64,000 nt of DNA from Croceibacter atlanticus HTCC2559 (GTDB lineage: Bacteria > Bacteroidota > Bacteroidia > Flavobacteriales > Flavobacteriaceae), in assembly GCF_000196315.1 (NCBI RefSeq), contig NC_014230.1, positions 1,054,001 through 1,118,000 on the forward strand. The letters run 5' to 3'. Shown here in pieces: positions 2,972 through 13,189 of this stretch (positions are counted from its first letter, which is position 1; each line of letters starts with the position of its first letter). The notes under the pieces were generated by a model. That model saw only the letters and a program-made list of their open reading frames with translations, had not been told where the DNA came from and did not search any database. Both the position numbers and the translations under genes were made by a program.

Positions 2972-3565
2972 ATGAAATATTTAGTACCCTTAATATTTAT
3001 TTTTACGTCTTTGTTGGGAATGTCTCAAAACGAAGCAATAAGTGTTGATGTTGCTAAAGATAACGATACACTTATTTTCTTTGTATCTAATAATACAGAC
3101 TTTACTCAAGATGTGATTTTTACTGTAAAAGATCTTGAAGGATTAGAAGGAAACACAAACCCTTTATTAAAACGACTAAACCCTCAGGTAACAGATATTT
3201 TTCACAAACTAAAGATTACAGGTCCTTACAATTATAATTTTGATTTTTTAAATGAGTTTCCAAAAGAACACCTCATTAATGAAGCGTTTACAGTAGGAGA
3301 TGATATCTTATTAAATAAAGGGATTGTGATTTTTGAAAAAACAGATTGCGGAAGATGCCAAACAACAATGGCCTATTTAAACGCTAAAAACAAACCTTAC
3401 GCTAAGCTTAATATTACAGACAACCCAATGTATAACCAATTAATGTGGGAGTTGTTAGAGCTTAATGGATATTTAGGAGATTCTGTAAAAACGCCAGTAA
3501 TTTTAGTTAACGGAGCAATTAGTTTTTCTCACGAAGATTTAGAAGGTTTCTTAGAGCAGCTCTAG
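2972..3565 (+). CDS. Exported glutaredoxin-domain protein
   Basis: A 197-residue protein with an N-terminal signal peptide (about residues 1-18, hydrophobic, ending near GMSQ), a roughly 90-residue domain I do not recognise, and a C-terminal glutaredoxin domain. The redox motif is CGRC (Cys126, Cys129), and the cis-proline loop KTPVILVNG follows at about 172-180. It would act as a periplasmic thiol-disulfide protein or small-electron carrier. It lies 10 nt behind the DUF3050 gene and probably shares its transcript. The stop codon overlaps that of the convergent uvrC in a shared CTAG. The function beyond thiol exchange is not readable. Confidence 0.75.
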   Translation: MKYLVPLIFIFTSLLGMSQNEAISVDVAKDNDTLIFFVSNNTDFTQDVIFTVKDLEGLEGNTNPLLKRLNPQVTDIFHKLKITGPYNYNFDFLNEFPKEHLINEAFTVGDDILLNKGIVIFEKTDCGRCQTTMAYLNAKNKPYAKLNITDNPMYNQLMWELLELNGYLGDSVKTPVILVNGAISFSHEDLEGFLEQL

Positions 3566-5358
3566 TTTTCTTTATTGTAAAATTCATAAACCAAGCTTGC
3601 CTTTGCTACACCAACAACCTGTTCAAGGTCTTCTCTTTTAGCCGATTTAATTTTTGAAATACTTCTAAAGTGTTTTAATAACTCGACTGCAGTTTTTTCA
3701 CCTATTCCAGTTATATTTTCAAGTTCAGTGCCTAAAGCAGCGCTACTTCGTTTTTGTCTGTGAAACGTAATACCGAAGCGGTGTGCTTCATTCCTAAGGT
3801 GTTGTATTATTTTTAAAGACTCAGATTTTTTGTCTAGATACAAAGGGTATTTATCTGTTGGGTAAAATATTTCCTCTAGGCGTTTAGCAATACCTACAAT
3901 AGCAATCTTTCCACGTAAACCTAAGTCGTCTAATGCTTTTACGGCAGAAGATAGTTGGCCTTTACCACCATCAATTATAATTAATTGCGGTAAGGGTTGG
4001 TCTTCATTTAAAAGACGCCTATAACGTCTAAAAACCACTTCCTCCATACTGGCAAAGTCATCTGGACCTTCAACAGTTTTAATATTAAATTTTCTATACT
4101 CGCTTTTGCTAGGTTTACCATCTTTAAACACCACACATGCTGCTACAGGATTTGTACCTTGAATGTTAGAGTTGTCAAAACATTCAATATGTCTTGGTTC
4201 TTCATTAAGTCGTAAATCTTCTTTCATTTGCGCCATAATACGCTTAACGTGCCTATCTGGGTCTACAATTTTCATTTGTTTAAAACGCTCTTGCCTAAAA
4301 TATTTAGCGTTTCTGGTAGAAAGGTCTACAATACTTTTCTTGTCTCCTAGCTTAGGAACGGTCACCTTTAAATCTTCACCTACCTCAACATGCATAGGCA
4401 CATAAATTTCTTTAGATTGAGAGTTAAAGCGTTGTCGTATTTCAATAATACCAAGCTCTAGTAACTCTTGGTCACCTTCATCTAACTTCTTTTTAAGTTC
4501 AATAGTGTGAGATCTTATTATTGAGCCGTGAGATAACTGTAAAAAATTAACGTACCCAAAGCCTTCATCACTAACAATTGAAAATACATCAACATTATTA
4601 ATTTTAGGATTTACTACTGTAGATTTGCTTTGGTACTTTTCTAAAACTTGTATCTTTTCTTTTATGCGCTGAGCATCTTCAAACTCCATACGCTCTGCGT
4701 GACCTTTCATCTGGTCTTTAAATTTAATGAGCGAATCTTTAAAATTACCTTTTACAATCTGTCTTATATGATCAATATTGCTATGGTATTCCTCTTCTGT
4801 TTGGTAACCTTCACAAGGACCTTGACAGTTTCCTAAATGATACTCTAAGCAAACTTTGTATTTACCGGCATCTATCTTTTCTTCAGCTAAATCATATTTA
4901 CAAGTCCTAAGTTGGTATAGGCCTTTAATAAGGTCAAGCAAGGTATGTACCGTTTTCATACTTGTAAAAGGACCATAATATTCGCTGCCATCTTTAATAA
5001 CACGTCGCGTAGGAAATACTCTAGGAAAGCGTTCTTTTTTAATGCAAAGCCAAGGATAGGTTTTGTCATCACGAAGCATGACATTAAAACGAGGCTTCAG
5101 TTTTTTAATTAAGTTGTTTTCTAGCAGAAGTGCATCTGTTTCAGAATTAACTACTATATGCTTTATGTTTTTAATCTTCTTTACCATCACACCAATACGA
5201 TGACTGTCGTGCTTTTTAGTAAAGTAGGAATTCACCCTTTTTTTTAAGTTTTTAGCCTTTCCAACATATAAGATTTTATCATCCTTATCAAAATATTGGT
5301 ACACGCCAGGACTGCTTGGCAAAGTCTTTACTTGTATGTCTAAAGGTGGTCTTTCCAT
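3562..5358 (-). CDS. uvrC: Excinuclease ABC subunit C
   Basis: A 598-residue protein with the full UvrC layout: N-terminal GIY-YIG nuclease (SSPGVYQYF...ILYVGKAKNLKKRV), a UVR domain around residues 200-235 (FEDAQRIKEKIQ), the RNase H-like C-terminal nuclease (ECFDNSNIQGT and IIDGGKGQL) and a helix-hairpin-helix pair (ITGIGEKTAVELLKHF). In nucleotide excision repair it cuts on both sides of a lesion after UvrA/UvrB recognition. An in-frame TTG lies at 5367, but the ATG at 5358 is preferred. A -7 box (5365-5372) ends only 6 nt upstream, so the mRNA may be nearly leaderless. Monocistronic, convergent with the glutaredoxin gene. Confidence 0.95.
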   Translation of the reverse strand: MERPPLDIQVKTLPSSPGVYQYFDKDDKILYVGKAKNLKKRVNSYFTKKHDSHRIGVMVKKIKNIKHIVVNSETDALLLENNLIKKLKPRFNVMLRDDKTYPWLCIKKERFPRVFPTRRVIKDGSEYYGPFTSMKTVHTLLDLIKGLYQLRTCKYDLAEEKIDAGKYKVCLEYHLGNCQGPCEGYQTEEEYHSNIDHIRQIVKGNFKDSLIKFKDQMKGHAERMEFEDAQRIKEKIQVLEKYQSKSTVVNPKINNVDVFSIVSDEGFGYVNFLQLSHGSIIRSHTIELKKKLDEGDQELLELGIIEIRQRFNSQSKEIYVPMHVEVGEDLKVTVPKLGDKKSIVDLSTRNAKYFRQERFKQMKIVDPDRHVKRIMAQMKEDLRLNEEPRHIECFDNSNIQGTNPVAACVVFKDGKPSKSEYRKFNIKTVEGPDDFASMEEVVFRRYRRLLNEDQPLPQLIIIDGGKGQLSSAVKALDDLGLRGKIAIVGIAKRLEEIFYPTDKYPLYLDKKSESLKIIQHLRNEAHRFGITFHRQKRSSAALGTELENITGIGEKTAVELLKHFRSISKIKSAKREDLEQVVGVAKASLVYEFYNKEN

Positions 5359-5364
5359 TACTTT

Positions 5365-5372
5365 CAAAGGTA
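5365..5372 (-). promoter_or_regulatory. -7 box of uvrC, almost on the start codon
   Basis: On the minus strand this reads TACCTTTG, an exact TAnnTTTG. Its last base is 6 nt from the first base of the uvrC ATG (5358), so the predicted leader is only a few nucleotides. No clear TTG is found at the usual upstream distance. Confidence 0.42.
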
Positions 5373-5434: not shown

Positions 5435-5450
5435 ATAGGAGTACCCCTAT
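5435..5450. promoter_or_regulatory. Near-palindromic operator candidate
   Basis: ATAGGAGTACCCCTAT is a 16-bp near-perfect palindrome (14 of 16 positions symmetrical) in an otherwise AT-rich region. It lies 42 nt upstream of the His-rich protein gene and 77 nt upstream of uvrC. G/C-run palindromes of this kind are typical of metal-responsive repressor sites, but the regulator is not identified here. Confidence 0.4.
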
Positions 5451-5491
5451 TTTAAAAATCTCTACACCTAATTTTATCGTTAATACTTAAG

Positions 5492-5947
5492 ATGAGTAAA
5501 AATGTACACAATGCTAACCTATCATATGTAGGACGATTTTTCGTCTTAATATTAGCTGTGTGTTATTTACTTACGCCACTGCATCAAACCTTAAAAAACA
5601 GTATTCACGACATATCTCACGCTATTACAAAGGTTGAGGCGCAGCAGCACCAACACCAACACATAGCAAACTCCAAAATGGGAAGACGTGTTATGGCGCA
5701 CAATCACAGTCATAACACCCATCAACATAAAGTTTTGTCGTTTTTTAATGCACTTTTTGATAGTGACACTTCTCCAGATCAAAATTTAAAAGACTCAGAT
5801 GTTAAAGTAGATAAGCGAGTTGTAGATATTGAAACACCTATATTTTTAAAGCCAACGTTATTTCAAGATCATAAATTTAGTTACCTACTAATATTGAAAA
5901 CTTCAGATAGAGGTTTAGACTCTCCGCCACCAGAACACCTTTCATAG
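5492..5947 (+). CDS. His-rich membrane-anchored or exported protein of unknown function
   Basis: A 151-residue protein with a short cytoplasmic N-terminus, one hydrophobic helix (about residues 14-30) and a periplasmic part. Eight histidines fall within residues 53-79 (H53, H55, H57, H70, H72, H74, H77, H79) as alternating H-x-H motifs, plus H31, H39 and H43. The tail ends in a proline-rich SPPPEHLS. I recognise no domain. The histidine clusters suggest transient binding of a divalent metal. It precedes a TonB receptor on the same strand by about 200 nt, and a near-palindromic site lies upstream. Inference: an accessory protein for metal sensing, buffering or uptake linked to the receptor. 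Real coding sequence is supported by its length, position and signal-like N-terminus. Confidence 0.65.
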   Translation: MSKNVHNANLSYVGRFFVLILAVCYLLTPLHQTLKNSIHDISHAITKVEAQQHQHQHIANSKMGRRVMAHNHSHNTHQHKVLSFFNALFDSDTSPDQNLKDSDVKVDKRVVDIETPIFLKPTLFQDHKFSYLLILKTSDRGLDSPPPEHLS

Positions 5948-6009
5948 TTAATTTTTGGGCATAATGTTAAGAAACCAAGCGTATTAAAATACGTTTTTTC
6001 TAAACATGG

Positions 6010-6031
6010 CACTAGTGTCTTAATACTAGTG
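6010..6031. repeat. Inverted repeat CACTAGT-8-ACTAGTG
   Basis: Perfect 7-bp arms CACTAGT (6010-6016) and ACTAGTG (6025-6031) separated by 8 nt, between the His-rich gene and the TonB receptor. No T-run follows on the plus strand, so it is a weak terminator. It could instead be an operator or a leader-RNA hairpin of the receptor gene. Confidence 0.4.
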
Positions 6032-6153
6032 ATTGTACTGTGTATTGCAATAATTCTGTGATACTTCAATTGTCCAAACACGTCCTTATTTTTTTTCATT
6101 TAATGTATTGCTCAGGCCTGTTTGGCTTAAGCTTTAGAAAATATAATTTAACT

Positions 6154-8376
6154 ATGAAGACACTTTTCTTCACTTTTATGCTGTGTGTGTCAGCATCACT
6201 ATTTGCACACGATTTAAACGGTACTGTAGTAAACCAAGACAATGAACGTTTAGAAGATGTTTATGTGTTTAACCAAAGAACAAGCACTGCTGTTTATACA
6301 GACCATAATGGTAATTTTAAATTAGAAGATGTAGAGGTTGGCGATATTATTATGCTATCCTATATAGGATTTAAAAACTACACATTAACCATAACAGAAA
6401 AAGATTTAAATAGAATCATAACCATATCATTAGAACAAGCCAATATTTCATTAACACAAGTACAAATTACACCAGAAGTTAATACACTTAACAAATTTGT
6501 AGATGTAGATATTAAAACTAATCCTGTAAAGTCCTCACAGGAATTAATGAGAAAAGTGCCAGGTGTTATTATTGGTCAACACGCTGGTGGTGGTAAGGCA
6601 GAGCAAATTTTCTTACGTGGTTTTGATGTAGATCACGGTACAGATGTAGCTATAGGTGTAGACGGTATGCCTGTAAATATGGTATCTCATGCACATGGGC
6701 AAGGTTATGCAGATTTACACTTTCTTATCCCAGAAACTGTAGATAACATCAATTTTGGGAAAGGGCCATATACTGCAAGTGTTGGTAACTTTAATACAGC
6801 AGGTTATTTAAACTTTAAAACCAAAAAACGTATTGAAGAAAGTAGTGTGTCTTTAGAGTATGGTCAATTTGAAACTTTAAGAACAGTAGGAGTATTTAAT
6901 GTATTAGATGATGATAATCATAGTGCTTATGTAGCAGGTTCATTAAACTTAACCGATGGTCCTTTTGAGTCTTCTCAAAACTTTAATAGGTATAATGTAA
7001 TGGCCAAGTACAATTACAGGTTGCCTCAAGATCAAGAATTAACATTAACAATGTCTCATTTTACTAGTAAGTGGGATGCTTCAGGGCAAATTCCTCAGCG
7101 CGCAGTTGACCAAGGTCTAATTGGTCGATTTGGAGCTATTGATGACACAGAAGGTGGCCAAACTAGCCGTACTAATATTAATATTGAACACACTAAGTAC
7201 TTAACAGATACAAAGACATTAAGTACCAATGCGTTTTATAGTAAATACGATTTTGAGTTGTTCTCCAACTTTACATTCTTTTTAGAAGATCCCGAAAATG
7301 GAGATCAGATTCGCCAATTTGAAGACCGTAATTTATATGGTTTTAAAACTGTGTTAAGCGATAAGTTTTATGATACCGCCACTAACTTTGAATATCAAGC
7401 AGGATTTGGTTTACGTTATGATAATGCAGATGATGTGCAGTTAAGCAGAACTAAAAACAGAAAAGAATTGCTGGAGCGTTTAGCTTTTGGAGATGTAGAC
7501 GAAACAAATATTTACGGTTTTTTAAATACTGAATTTGAGTTTGGAGACTTTAAGCTTAATCCAGGTTTACGATTAGATTACTTTAAGTTTGATTACGTAA
7601 ATAACTTAACTGAATCTTATGACAATGCATCAGAAACTAAACTAACCGCGAGCCCTAAACTTAATCTTATTTATACACCTACTAATACGGTACAGCTTTT
7701 TGCTAAAACAGGTATAGGGTTTCACTCTAATGATACAAGAGTAGTAACTGCAAATAACGGTGAGGATATATTACCATTAGCATACGGTGCAGATTTAGGA
7801 GGTATATTTAAAATTACAGACAACTTAGTATTTAATACAGCGTTGTGGTACCTGTTTCTTGAGCAAGAATTTGTTTATGTAGGAGATGCGGCAATAGTTG
7901 AGCCAAGCGGAAAAACTAGACGTTTAGGAATTGATGCTGGATTACGATATGAGCCACTTTCCTGGTTGTATTTGTACTCAGATATTAATTATACCTACGC
8001 ACGTTCTATAAATGAGCCAGAAGGCCAGGATTATATACCCTTAGCACCAGATTTTACTTCTACAGGAGGAATTACAATACAAAACCTTAATGGCTTTTCA
8101 GGTGGATTAAATTATAGGTATTTAGATGATAGAGCTGCAAATGAAGATGACAGTATTGTAGCTGAAGGTTATTTTGTTACAGATGCAAATATTAACTACA
8201 CCTATAAGAATTATACATTTGGTATCGCTATTGAAAATTTACTTGATACAGAATGGAATGAAACTCAATTTGCTACAGAAAGTAGATTGCAAAATGAAGT
8301 AGAACCAGTAGAGGAGATTCACTTTACACCAGGAACTCCATTTTTCTTAAGAGGAAAGGTTACTGTTACATTTTAA
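6154..8376 (+). CDS. TonB-dependent outer-membrane receptor with CarboxypepD_reg domain
   Basis: A 740-residue receptor. Signal peptide about 1-19 (ending SLFAHD), a carboxypeptidase-regulatory-like beta domain (about 20-100), a TonB plug (about 120-230, with MRKVPGVIIGQ and IFLRGFDVDHGTD) and a beta barrel ending in the terminal Phe of KVTVTF. The plug carries a His-rich stretch MVSHAHGQGYADLHF. The substrate cannot be read directly. The histidines in the plug and the His-rich neighbour suggest a metal ion or metal complex rather than a SusC-type glycan system, since no SusD partner follows. The reading frame runs upstream to 6040, but the ATG at 6154 starts a proper signal peptide. A bidirectional terminator follows. 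Confidence 0.88.
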   Translation: MKTLFFTFMLCVSASLFAHDLNGTVVNQDNERLEDVYVFNQRTSTAVYTDHNGNFKLEDVEVGDIIMLSYIGFKNYTLTITEKDLNRIITISLEQANISLTQVQITPEVNTLNKFVDVDIKTNPVKSSQELMRKVPGVIIGQHAGGGKAEQIFLRGFDVDHGTDVAIGVDGMPVNMVSHAHGQGYADLHFLIPETVDNINFGKGPYTASVGNFNTAGYLNFKTKKRIEESSVSLEYGQFETLRTVGVFNVLDDDNHSAYVAGSLNLTDGPFESSQNFNRYNVMAKYNYRLPQDQELTLTMSHFTSKWDASGQIPQRAVDQGLIGRFGAIDDTEGGQTSRTNINIEHTKYLTDTKTLSTNAFYSKYDFELFSNFTFFLEDPENGDQIRQFEDRNLYGFKTVLSDKFYDTATNFEYQAGFGLRYDNADDVQLSRTKNRKELLERLAFGDVDETNIYGFLNTEFEFGDFKLNPGLRLDYFKFDYVNNLTESYDNASETKLTASPKLNLIYTPTNTVQLFAKTGIGFHSNDTRVVTANNGEDILPLAYGADLGGIFKITDNLVFNTALWYLFLEQEFVYVGDAAIVEPSGKTRRLGIDAGLRYEPLSWLYLYSDINYTYARSINEPEGQDYIPLAPDFTSTGGITIQNLNGFSGGLNYRYLDDRAANEDDSIVAEGYFVTDANINYTYKNYTFGIAIENLLDTEWNETQFATESRLQNEVEPVEEIHFTPGTPFFLRGKVTVTF

Positions 8377-8398: not shown

Positions 8399-8432
8399 AA
8401 AACCCATTTAAACACGTTTTAAATGGGTTTTT
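8399..8432. terminator. Bidirectional terminator between TonB receptor and AlbA_2 gene
   Basis: Arms AAAACCCATTTAAA (8399-8412) and TTTAAATGGGTTTT (8418-8431) around a short loop, with A-run and T-run flanks. It can work on both strands between the two convergent genes. Confidence 0.82.
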
Positions 8433-8444
8433 ATGTACGAGACA

Positions 8445-9581
8445 CTAATTGTATTTTACCTTTCTTAAAATCCTAACGCTGTCTTTAAAGTTAGAATATG
8501 CATCTGTATCATAGGATTTTAAATGATACTTAGCAGACTCTAGTTTTATCAAGGCATCTTCAAATTCATTAAAATAACAAATGAGATAGGTTTGCGGTAG
8601 TTGAAAAACATCTAATTTTTCTGCTGTAGTAAGTGGTGCTTTGTTTTTTAACTTCTCCAACAATGTATTGGCAGAATTATAAATATGATACAAGGTTTTC
8701 TTATCATATTGTGGCGGCTTAAATAGCAATTTGGTTTCTATGTCATAACTCACATTATCTTTAAACTTTATAGAAACCTCTTCAAGTGGGTAATATTTTT
8801 TTTGATGTTGCAGTCCTAAATATACATATTCAATAATTTGAAATTCATCTTCTGTAATGCTAAAACTTACTTCATCTAATTCAGAATAAAAAAGCTTTAC
8901 TTGTTCATTAATCAAAGCAATATCTACTCTGGAATAGTAAACATTTTCTTTCACTGTTTTTTTCTTTCCAGCCCAACATACTACAAAGTACTCCTTAAAT
9001 ACTTTGTATTTGGGATTAAAATCTTTACGCTTATTCAAAAAATCAAAAACACCATCTAAGGTTAGTTCTACATTGTTTTGAGCGTGATCCTCAATTGCTT
9101 TTACTATTTCTGAATTTTTGTCTTCAATCTTTAAATCATAAACCTTTGGCATAGATATGCTACCGTCTCTAAAAAATACAGAGCCTCCATAGTATTTCCA
9201 TATGTTCTTTCTAAGCGAACAAATTTTTCCTTTATTGGGTCTAATTGTTACTAATCCTACAACCTTGTCATCTGGCAAATGTGGAAAAGGTATGTTTTCA
9301 TATGCTACAATTGGAGCATTACTTAAATACGCGTTTACTAAATTTTGAATTTTTGCATCGTCATAGAAATCGACACCTGAAATACTGTTATCTTCATCTT
9401 CTACGCCAATAACTATATAGCTGTTGTTTTCTGGGTTGCTATTTGAAAGTGCACAAATATGTTTAAGAAATTTGGCTTTTCCTTCTTTGCTACCTAAGCT
9501 AATCTTACGCTTTTTGTCATAAAAGCTGTTCTCATCATTGTGAGCAAGTAGGTGCTTTATAAGAAGACGTTTATTAATCAC
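8445..9581 (-). CDS. AlbA_2-domain (divergent AAA-4/Schlafen-type) protein
   Basis: A 378-residue protein. Its N-terminal about 150 residues show the AlbA_2/Schlafen-like pattern: KAKFLKHICALSNS, SYIVIGVEDEDNSISGVDF, and VVGLVTIRPNKGKI followed by FFRDGS. Family members are often annotated as ATP-binding or transcriptional-regulator-like proteins, and some Schlafen-type domains are nucleases. The C-terminal about 220 residues are charged and not recognised. No ATG fits; the start is GTG at 9581. It lies alone between two terminators and is convergent to the TonB receptor. It may be a regulator or a stand-alone stress or defence gene; neither role is shown by the sequence. Confidence 0.68.
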   Translation of the reverse strand: MINKRLLIKHLLAHNDENSFYDKKRKISLGSKEGKAKFLKHICALSNSNPENNSYIVIGVEDEDNSISGVDFYDDAKIQNLVNAYLSNAPIVAYENIPFPHLPDDKVVGLVTIRPNKGKICSLRKNIWKYYGGSVFFRDGSISMPKVYDLKIEDKNSEIVKAIEDHAQNNVELTLDGVFDFLNKRKDFNPKYKVFKEYFVVCWAGKKKTVKENVYYSRVDIALINEQVKLFYSELDEVSFSITEDEFQIIEYVYLGLQHQKKYYPLEEVSIKFKDNVSYDIETKLLFKPPQYDKKTLYHIYNSANTLLEKLKNKAPLTTAEKLDVFQLPQTYLICYFNEFEDALIKLESAKYHLKSYDTDAYSNFKDSVRILRKVKYN

Positions 9582-9647
9582 TACTGAAGATTTTCTTCTA
9601 GAAAGATAACAAAGATTTTAGCTATTACAGTTAAGTTATTATAAAAC

Positions 9648-9683
9648 AAAAAACCTCCTACAACTTAATTGTAGGAGGTTTTA
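9648..9683 (-). terminator. Terminator of the sdhCAB operon
   Basis: Arms AAAACCTCCTACAA (9650-9663) and TTGTAGGAGGTTTT (9669-9682) with a 5-nt loop. On the minus strand the stem is followed by a T-run, so it ends the sdh transcript 20 nt after sdhB. Confidence 0.85.
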
Positions 9684-9702
9684 AATATTGTAAAATGTGT
9701 TT

Positions 9703-10452
9703 TTAAGATTCTTTTACACTTGCATTAAGATATTCGCGGTTCATACGTGCAATGTTTTCTAAAGAAATTCCTTTTGGGCATTCTATTTCACAAGCTCCAG
9801 TATTTGTACAGTTACCAAATCCTTCCTTGTCCATTTGCTCTACCATATTTAAAACTCTGCGAGTAGCTTCAACTTGACCTTGAGGTAACAATGCAAACTG
9901 GCTTACTTTAGCAGATGTAAACAACATAGCACTTGCATTTTTACAAGCTGCTACACAAGCACCACAACCAATACAAGTAGCTGCATAGAATGCATCATCT
10001 GCATTTTGCTTTTCTATAGGAATAGCATTTGCATCTTGAGTGTTACCAGATGTGTTTACAGAAACGTAACCACCTGCTTGCTGTATACGATCAAAAGATG
10101 TGCGATCTACTACTAAATCTTTAATTACAGGAAATGCCTTTGCTCTAAATGGCTCGATAGTAATTGTATCACCATCATTAAACATTCTCATGTGTAATTG
10201 ACAGGTCGTAACTAATCGGTCTGGACCGTGAGGCTCACCATTAATTTGTAAAGAGCAACTACCGCAAATTCCTTCACGACAATCGTGATCAAACTCAACA
10301 GGCTCATCACCTTTGGTTATTAATTCTTCATTAAGAACATCTAACATTTCAAGGAAAGACATATCACCGTCTATACCGTCTATATTATAGGTCTGTATAC
10401 CACCTTTGGTATCAGCATTCTTTTGTCTCCAGATTTTAAGTGTCAACTTCAT
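9703..10452 (-). CDS. sdhB: Succinate dehydrogenase/fumarate reductase iron-sulfur subunit
   Basis: A 249-residue electron-transfer subunit with all three clusters: [2Fe-2S] ligands Cys58, Cys63, Cys66 and Cys84; the CxxCxxCxxxC set at 160-170 ([11 protein letters not shown]); and a final set at 215, 221 and 225 ([14 protein letters not shown]). It passes electrons from the FAD in SdhA to the membrane haem/quinone subunit SdhC. It is last in sdhC-sdhA-sdhB, 6 nt after sdhA. The complex belongs to the class with one diheme-type cytochrome b subunit and no separate SdhD, as in Bacteroides and Wolinella. In this aerobic-looking organism it probably works as succinate:menaquinone oxidoreductase. 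Confidence 0.95.
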
Positions 10453-10458
10453 AGTATC

Positions 10459-12462
10459 TTATTTGTAACTTCTGGTTTTAACTTCAATATTTTCGTACTC
10501 CAAGTTCTCTTTATGTAGTACTGCGGCGCTTGGTTCACCTTTGTACTCCCAAGCAGCTACGTACATGAAGTTTTCATCATCACGCATTGCTTCACCTTCT
10601 TCTGTTTGGTACTCTTCTCTAAAGTGACCTCCACAAGATTCATTTCTATGTAGTGCATCTTTAGCAAAAAGCTCTCCTAGCTCTAAGAAGTCTGCTACTC
10701 TTCCAGCTTTTTCAAGCTCTTGATTCATTTCATTTGCATCTCCAGGAACTTTTACATCTCTATAAAATTCTTCACGCAACTCCTTAATTTCGGAGATTGC
10801 AGACTCAAGATCTTTAGCATTTCTGCTCATCCCACACTTGTTCCACATAATAAGCCCAAGCTTTTTATGAAAGTGGTCTACAGATTTTGTTCCATTGTTG
10901 TTTGCTAATTTATTTAAACGGTCAACTTGTAGTTTTTCAGCTTCATCAAACTCCTTAGTGTCTGTAGGAATTGGTCCCGTACGAATATCATCTGCTAAAT
11001 AATTACCAATTGTATATGGCAATACAAAATAACCATCTGCCAAACCTTGCATTAAGGCACTTGCACCTAATCTGTTTGCACCGTGATCACTAAAGTTAGC
11101 TTCACCTGTAGCAAATAATCCTGGCACTGTAGTTTGTAAGTTATAATCTACCCAAATACCACCCATAGTGTAATGAACAGCTGGATAAATTTTCATTGGA
11201 GTTTCATATGGATTCTCATCTACAATCTTCTCATACATTTGGAATAAGTTACCGTACTTGTTCTCGATAACTTCTTTTCCTAATTCTTTTATTTTAGCTT
11301 CAGAAGGGTTGCTTATTTTTTGAGTAGCTGCAGCTTCTTTACCATAACGTTGTATTGCAGAAGCAAAATCTAGGTATACTGCTTGTCCAGTTTTATTAAC
11401 ACCATAACCAGCATCACAACGTTCTTTAGCGGCACGAGAAGCAACATCTCTAGGAACTAAGTTACCAAAAGATGGGTAACGACGCTCTAAGTAATAGTCA
11501 CGATCTTCTTGCTTTAAATCTGTTGGTTTTAATTTACCTTCTCTAATCTTCTTAACATCTTCAATATGTTTTGGTACCCAGATACGACCATCGTTTCTAA
11601 GAGACTCAGACATTAATGTTAATTTTGATTGGTGATCTCCAGAAACAGGAATACACGTTGGGTGTATTTGTGTGTAGCAAGGGTTTGCAAAGAATGCACC
11701 ACGCTTGTGAGCTTTCCAAGCAGCTGTTACGTTACTACCCATTGCGTTTGTAGATAGGAAAAATACGTTACCGTAACCACCAGAAGCAATTACTACAGCA
11801 TGTGCTGAGTGGCGTTCAATTTTTCCTGTCTTTAAATCACGAGCAATAATACCACGTGCTTTGCCATCAATTTTTACAACGTCAAGCATTTCATGACGTG
11901 TGTAAGATTTTATTTTACCGCGGTTTATTTGTCTGTTCATTGCTGCGTATGCACCAAGAAGCAATTGTTGTCCTGTTTGTCCTTTAGCATAAAACGTACG
12001 CGATACTAATACACCACCAAAAGAACGGTTGTCCAAAAGACCTCCATACTCACGTGCAAAAGGAACACCTTGTGCAACACATTGGTCAATAATATTAGCA
12101 GAAACTTCAGCTAATCGGTATACATTCTCTTCACGAGAACGGTAATCGCCACCTTTTACAGTGTCATAAAATAAACGGTAGGTAGAGTCACCATCTCCTT
12201 GATAGTTTTTGGCAGCATTAATACCACCTTGTGCAGCAATAGAGTGCGCACGTCTTGGAGAATCCTGGTAACAAAATGTTTTTACATTATAGCCTAATTC
12301 AGCTAAAGTAGCAGCAGCAGATCCACCTGCTAAACCAGTACCTATGATGATAACATCTATATTACGTTTGTTAGCTGGGTTAACTAGGTTAATGCTATTC
12401 TTATGATTGGTCCACTTTTTGGCAAGTTCGCCTTGTGGTAATTTTGAATCTAATATTGACAT
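10459..12462 (-). CDS. sdhA: Succinate dehydrogenase/fumarate reductase flavoprotein subunit
   Basis: A 667-residue catalytic subunit. The N-terminal dinucleotide fold [19 protein letters not shown], the flavin-attachment region with [12 protein letters not shown], and the C-terminal [11 protein letters not shown] and RSYK-type ends are typical of the Bacteroidota SdhA group, whose members are longer than the E. coli form. It oxidises succinate to fumarate with covalently bound FAD. It lies between sdhC (7 nt upstream) and sdhB (6 nt downstream) in one transcript. Confidence 0.95.
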
Positions 12463-12469
12463 ACTTCTG

Positions 12470-13189
12470 CTATATTAATGATTGAAACGCTTGCTGAATT
12501 AATAATACAACCTCATTGTCGTGTAGGTTAGGCACAGAAACCAAATGATGGTAAAGTGCTATAAACACAAATCCTGCAGGTATTACAATGGCGTAAGCTT
12601 TGGCAAATTTGCTAAATGCACCTCTGTATCCTTTTGTCCAGCCTAAAGATTGCATAGAAGATGCAAAGCCGTGGAAAAGGTGAAGTGCTAAAAACACAAA
12701 TGAAATAACATATAGTCCTGTTCTTACTGGACTTTCAAATTTGTGTACCAGCTCTGGGAAATAACGATCCTCTACAGCTTCAGACACATCTACATATTTA
12801 TAGATAATCTCTGGAACCCAAAAATCATAAAAGTGCAAGCCTAAAAAAGCTAATACTACTAATCCTGAATATATCATATTACGAGATACCCAAGTAGAAT
12901 TTTCGTTGCCTTTAAAACTTACATAACTAATACCACGTGCATTTCTGTTTCTATATTCTAAAATGAAGCCCATTATAAAATGAAAGAGCACACCGAATAT
13001 TAATACAGGCTGTAGTAAAAATTGAACAACAAAGTTTGTACCCATAAAATGAGAGGTTTCGTTAAATAAGTCTGGACTTATAACGGACATCATATTAATA
13101 GTAAAATGTTGAGCTAGGAAAAAAACAAGAAACAAACCAGAAAGTGCCATAGCAACTTTTCTAGCGATAGAAGAGGAATTAACTCCCAT
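12470..13189 (-). CDS. sdhC: Succinate dehydrogenase cytochrome b subunit
   Basis: A 239-residue integral membrane protein with five predicted helices, the single-subunit type B anchor (SdhC/FrdC of Bacteroides, Wolinella and Bacillus). Histidines suited to haem ligation occur in helices ([41 protein letters not shown]). It anchors SdhAB and reduces menaquinone. First gene of the sdh operon; a consensus promoter lies 25 nt upstream. Confidence 0.93.

Follow-up and report, generated by a model that had tools for sequence, protein, structure and literature searches.

The analysed DNA, a 64,000-nt stretch of the Croceibacter atlanticus HTCC2559 genome (NC_014230.1, positions 1,054,001–1,118,000; hereafter “the window”), carries two genes that are real and belong together: one encodes a 151-aa histidine-rich protein, for which we use the working name HISR, and the other a TonB-dependent receptor. 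We suggest, at a probability of roughly 55%, that this locus provides the uptake side of a system for acquiring a metal other than iron, in which HISR serves as the periplasmic receiver, with the nickel/cobalt class favoured. The pair probably carries a scarce metal, for example nickel or cobalt, into the cell.

HISR (5492–5947, plus strand) has uvrC upstream of it (3562–5367, minus strand) and is separated by 207 nt from the receptor gene (6154–8376, plus strand), the product of which comprises 740 aa when counted from the ATG at 6154; GTG 6040 is a possible start of the mechanically called ORF. The gap between the two genes contains a hairpin with a trailing T run (about 5977–5998, plus strand, z −3.8). 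This possible terminator or attenuator is absent from the terminator-scan list; its location within the gap makes simple co-transcription uncertain in the window genome, and HISR and the receptor are possibly expressed in unequal amounts. A terminator-like hairpin with a perfect 14-bp stem (8399–8431, plus strand, z −6.3) is located 3′ of the receptor, and the gene that follows (8445–9581, minus strand) is unrelated.

The original prediction placed a 16-bp near-palindrome, treated as a candidate operator, in front of this pair. The near-palindrome does exist (5435–5450, no strand assigned), but it does not exceed chance. The window contains 47 16-mers that are palindromic at 14 or more of the 16 positions, versus 29–62 in 15 dinucleotide shuffles, and nine palindromic 16-mers with at least seven G/C, versus 2–10 in the shuffles. 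A genome scan gave one occurrence of the exact 14-bp core in the genome and 15 sites with up to two mismatches, versus nine for the reversed control. Nor was the near-palindrome seen in the uvrC–HISR intergenic region of six relatives. On the strength of these shuffle counts, the genome scan and the comparison with relatives, the operator role was rejected, and the near-palindrome is a chance feature outside the system.

The adjacency of HISR and the receptor is conserved wherever HISR was found. With a single-sequence query (E ≤ 0.01), HISR was detected in 24 of 149 family genomes, the Croceibacter genome included, and all 24 matches are on the same strand as the receptor and just 5′ of it. 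The refuting condition named in the original prediction, a lack of adjacency in relatives, therefore did not hold. The receptor itself is present in 58 of the 149 genomes (E ≤ 1e-60). At the level of the phylum, four of 296 genomes match a 27-sequence HISR profile, all of them beside a receptor, and one of these genomes is from another family of the class. The whole-genome searches are the fair test of adjacency, since the profile behind our locus-context labels was built from receptor-adjacent ORFs and favours it.

The genomic contexts were compared in two sets of loci, one of 80 (the best 80 of 478 relatives, with distant contexts under-sampled) and one of 58, in which HISR occurs at 58 and 26 loci, respectively; because these sets partly overlap, distinct proteins were counted. 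Among the 133 distinct receptors, 31 have a peptide synthetase together with HISR, 18 show the window-like arrangement of uvrC and HISR, 30 have HISR in a different setting, four have uvrC without HISR and 24 fall into other contexts. The remaining 26 (sister receptors L097–L119 and L228–L236) stand behind two DUF4331 proteins and/or a TPR protein and never have HISR. In total, no HISR was detected next to 54 of the 133 receptors (some at contig ends, which may account for missing features at a few loci), including five Maribacter-like loci, which suggests that HISR is not essential to transport.

HISR contains 14 His residues, eight of which (53, 55, 57, 70, 72, 74, 77, and 79) fall within 27 residues (5648–5728, plus strand), exactly as predicted. 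Given 14 His, this clustering is just mildly unusual, because it was equalled in 333 of 20,000 composition-preserving shuffles. The unusual feature of HISR is the high His content itself, more than its clustering: His makes up 5–15% (median 8.5%) of 79 distinct HISR relatives and has a median of 2.0% in their receptors. Cys, which is absent from 25 of the 79 proteins, is not conserved as His is. All 79 have Pro-Pro near the C-terminus and 68 have a DKH motif, in place of which the window HISR has DKR (Arg at residue 109). In the alignment of 57 sequences (A3: 56 of the 58 HISR proteins of the 80-locus set plus the window, L177 and L185 omitted), H39, H79, P146, and P147 are invariant, and Y25, H43, H55, H77, D107, K108, and H109 nearly so, which means that H55, H77, and H79 of the His cluster are conserved across the family. 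The other alignments comprised upstream ORFs (A1: 2 of 29, the unrelated proteins of L124 and L125, omitted), 27 members of the 58-locus set with the window (A2) and 37 of 80 receptors with the window (A4).

The window HISR has no recognised domain in domain-library searches, again as predicted. For the family as a whole, Pfam, NCBIfam and PDB gave no match beyond composition-like ones and no convincing PDB relative, and a fold search with the HISR model matched nothing. A weak UreE match in two of 57 members (best E 8e-4) probably reflects His composition. The HYC_CC_PP model of NCBIfam did not match the window HISR at E ≤ 5 and was not among the NCBIfam families found for the 57 members (best 25 of 32 families). 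In its own genome the HISR profile has a single match (E 1.1e-32), and the window protein fits the proposed family by this match, by its His-richness, by the PP tail and by its place next to the receptor, the DKR variant being the one departure. Judged from these sequence comparisons, HISR is a new, undescribed family of small proteins, uncatalogued in the libraries searched. Among the titles and abstract beginnings retrieved, no publication was recognised as describing HISR or the peptide-synthetase cluster considered below, and a term search within PMC12971057 was empty.

The AlphaFold2 model of HISR (mean pLDDT 70.6) shows little apart from three helices, at residues 8–27, at 31–52 (where H39 and H43 are located) and, a short one, at 80–89. 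The first of them (5513–5572, plus strand; pLDDT about 90) is the predicted membrane helix, apart from which the protein is modelled as mostly unstructured. Presumably this helix crosses the inner membrane and the remainder of HISR is periplasmic. A short, disordered protein with one helix, the conserved C-terminal PP and DKH of which are outside the His cluster, might also respond to the metal load from the membrane and hand nothing over, acting as a sensor or as a brake on, for instance, TonB or a regulator. We consider this quite improbable, as the loci read show no linkage of HISR to a sigma/anti-sigma or two-component gene.

The second gene of the pair, correctly predicted as a TonB receptor, encodes CarbopepD_reg_2 and Plug (PF07715, 51.0 bits versus a cut-off of 23.9) domains and a C-terminal barrel, which is many-stranded in a model with an overall pLDDT of just 73 and a low-scoring plug region. 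The model has 308 PDB matches at E ≤ 0.001, and all 50 among the matches listed are TonB receptors, many of which it resembles at 11–17% identity; the best Foldseek match is PqqU (16% identity, amid many siderophore receptors), and OprC also matches. The PDB search with the receptor sequence recovered only plugs, those of BtuB, the colicin I receptor and a SusC homolog. The receptor thus belongs to the TonB-dependent class, and its membership of a named metal-receptor family is only putative. It scores below the cut-offs of the models for siderophore receptors (TIGR01783, 69.6 bits versus 223.5), BtuB (TIGR01779, 48 versus 599.7) and SusC/RagA (TIGR04056, 52.2 versus 368.25); no cobalamin riboswitch was found in the window, and no SusD adjoins the receptor gene. 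No second full-length copy was found in the 2.95-Mb genome, where five other matches are short, N-terminal and weak (E 8e-8 or weaker). The His stretch noticed earlier in the plug (SHAHGQGYADLH, residues 178–189; 6685–6720, plus strand) is present, but it has no special link to HISR: SHAHGQGY occurs in 58 of the 59 receptors examined, SQAHGQGY in the remaining one, and receptors without HISR have the motif too, on which ground it was rejected as a mark of the HISR link.

Since no curated metal-receptor model is above its cut-off, the receptor might instead import an organic compound (a peptide, a vitamin-like molecule or a synthetase product acting as a signal or antibiotic), HISR being a handling protein with His serving another purpose. 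The PqqU match, the 26 relatives in the DUF4331/TPR context of unknown function and the cobalamin-linked receptor copies described below, which could take up corrinoids instead of cobalt, are compatible with such a role, the first with the proviso that it stands at 16% identity among many siderophore receptors. However, the His content of HISR, the occurrence of HupE in 31 of 33 synthetase loci and the urease context of one relative speak against an organic ligand, which we regard as unlikely.

The HISR–receptor pair ends, on the 3′ side, a peptide-synthetase cluster in 31 of the 133 distinct receptor loci, always with HISR; this linkage is a new observation. All 20 synthetase loci of the 80-locus set and all 13 of the 58-locus set have HISR, and a gene for a long HupE_UreJ_2 protein accompanies 18 and 13 of them, respectively, and was found at no other receptor locus examined. 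In locus L095, the cluster runs from an ornithine-cyclodeaminase-like protein through an acyl-CoA dehydrogenase (closest to PigA among the NCBIfam models, at 408.9 bits, under the cut-off of 500), an AMP-ligase, a carrier and a condensation–adenylation–carrier protein to HISR and the receptor. The adenylation domain of this synthetase (8526–12656) is split by a domain resembling WbuX, an N-acetyl sugar amidotransferase (896–1212; 121.1 bits, under the model cut-off of 203.2). Such an insert is present in 26 of 33 synthetases and is missing from the forms of 1033–1051 aa. The long HupE_UreJ_2 gene and a second synthetase (condensation–adenylation–carrier, plus a thioesterase in L077) are divergent in the cluster. 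Its composition varies: by the locus-context labels, 11 of 33 loci have the dehydrogenase, which suggests a starter of the pyrrole type.

The adenylation code of the first synthetase, read by motif, is DL[TS]SIGE[VI]G in 28 of 33 and resembles what we take to be the asparagine code; the motif DSA.[IM]AEVW, found in all 15 second synthetases read, is presumably a His-like code, although this resemblance is weak. The cluster looks like a “metal-chelator factory”, and its product may chelate metal. No such synthetase was found in the window genome, in which the adenylation region of the synthetase of a relative gave only weak matches (best E 1.9e-9, 24% identity); a synthetase linked to the receptor, as in a metallophore biosynthetic cluster, occurs in relatives only. 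The earlier statement that genes for SusD, siderophores, corrinoids and CzcA are absent next to the pair is true of the window, but a nested clade of relatives does have the synthetase cluster there.

The order of events can be read from a FastTree phylogeny of 133 of 139 receptors (six identical ones removed), rooted on L123–L125. All synthetase loci fall into a single clade (39 leaves, of which 31 have the synthetase; support 0.91), which is nested inside the HISR-bearing part of the tree, and the branch of the window receptor splits off before this clade (support 0.91–0.99). This topology implies that the receptor and HISR came first and the synthetase later; the window organism would accordingly represent the earlier state of the system, here termed “uptake-only”. 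Loss of the synthetase in the window lineage (a “cheater” by loss) is less likely for the same reason.

The favoured Ni(II)/Co(II) class, like the putative ligand, is suggested by gene neighbourhoods of relatives, and evidence from receptor copies that are 35–50% identical may not apply to the window receptor. One hint at these metals is the HupE/UreJ family to which the cluster permease belongs. Cobalamin riboswitches lie directly upstream of all three receptors at 37–40% identity (L123:2920–3107, L124:12949–13139, and L125:13218–13415); the L125 receptor sits in a cobalamin-synthesis operon, and the neighbours of L124 are similar in size and order. Locus L126 (G013:C8:201000–220000) has a complete-looking urease operon (UreC, E, F, G, and D by Pfam), with a degraded receptor copy containing several stops no more than about 1 kb behind it; the library searches matched nothing to the 233-aa ORF that separates the two, and this wide copy, having no intact receptor, was not counted among the receptor loci.

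The demand for these metals is less apparent. Urease exceeds the cut-off in one of the 149 family genomes, namely G013, and in one of the 13 synthetase genomes of that sample; the corrin marker CbiC was found in nine of the 149 and in none of the 13, and the window genome was found to have neither. No obvious need for nickel or cobalt was therefore found in these organisms. HupE_UreJ_2 in some form matches 136 of the 149 genomes, so HupE alone is no proof of nickel.

The low frequency of urease and CbiC among the synthetase genomes suits a module of the same kind that is specific to zinc (or copper), with a ZnuD- or OprC-like receptor and HISR as the zinc (copper) receiver. Every flavobacterium needs zinc, and a His-rich sequence without conserved Cys suits Zn(II) and Ni(II) equally. 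In one relative (L186:8771–9629), genes for a Fur-family regulator and MerC lie upstream of the receptor, with a TGCAAC-TTA-GTTGCA repeat between them, which could indicate zinc or another metal. However, this context is seen beside the receptor once: at none of 30 other MerC loci among the matches listed (PF03203, 149 genomes) is a receptor located within about 1.5 kb, and the Fur/MerC route to zinc was set aside on this account. An operator-like site of the L186 type has five near matches per strand in the Croceibacter genome, versus four in the reversed control. Since the other metal contexts of the relatives are the HupE/UreJ permease, the cobalamin riboswitches and the urease operon, we find zinc or copper a possible but clearly less probable choice than nickel or cobalt.

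Two observations concern the surrounding gene families. MerC genes of Flavobacteriaceae (L249–L278) often adjoin a Fur-family regulator, 16 of the 30 loci matching the regulator of L186. A link of the DUF4331 loci to HupE was rejected, as no DUF4331 or TPR match was found in the 30 HupE loci read.

For the favoured non-iron metal uptake, we propose the following scheme. The receptor, as is known for its class, would bring a substrate, here a metal or a metal chelate, to the periplasm. HISR, tethered by its one inner-membrane helix, would take the metal on its flexible His-rich arm and hand it to an inner-membrane permease, which in the cluster-bearing strains may be HupE/UreJ. In the derived clade, the pair was joined by the peptide-synthetase cluster, which would make the chelator, and by the long HupE/UreJ permease, which would take the metal into the cell. 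Free metal, or chelators produced by others, would serve the window organism. In this way the original idea of a metal-capture module with a His-rich receiver is partly supported: it is still the best reading and is strengthened in kind by the conserved adjacency, but not in the metal, and it loses the palindromic operator and the link to the plug His stretch. A broader proposal, which we advance tentatively and with less confidence, is that marine Flavobacteriaceae possess an undescribed peptide-metallophore system for nickel/cobalt (or another divalent metal), composed of a dedicated receptor, membrane-tethered HISR as a novel type of periplasmic metal acceptor, HupE/UreJ and a synthetase with an amidotransferase-like insert, in which the pair is older than the synthetase and the window-like lineages are “uptake-only”, possibly living on the chelators of their neighbours.

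Little is known of how marine Bacteroidota acquire non-iron trace metals. A conserved pair that occurs alone or with a putative chelator factory opens two questions to testing, namely the identity of the scarce metal and the possible reliance on foreign chelators where the factory is absent, and a small family absent from the libraries searched gains a role to test.

TonB-dependent receptors for non-iron metals include ZnuD (zinc), OprC (copper), and FrpB4 (nickel). The window receptor is likewise a TonB-dependent outer-membrane barrel with a proposed role in non-iron metal import, and OprC is among its structural matches; in contrast to these receptors, to which the PDB search gave no sequence match, it has an N-terminal CarbopepD domain and HISR as a partner. 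To our knowledge, the ZnuD, OprC, and FrpB4 systems have neither. The metallophore loci of pseudopaline and methanobactin combine biosynthesis, a TonB receptor and an inner permease, and in the 31 relatives the genes for putative chelator synthesis are similarly clustered with those for the outer-membrane receptor and for a permease that may carry metal; they differ in the WbuX-like insert of the synthetase (26 of 33), in HupE/UreJ and in HISR, and the window has just the receptor and HISR. The HYC_CC_PP-type proteins of Bacteroidota are small and anchored and have metal-ligand residues and a Pro-Pro tail. HISR shares this layout, with His where HYC_CC_PP has Cys. Finally, the flexible His-rich segment of HISR recalls the His-rich nickel-handling proteins, such as the UreE tails, HypB, and Hpn, from which HISR differs in being membrane anchored and linked to an outer-membrane receptor.
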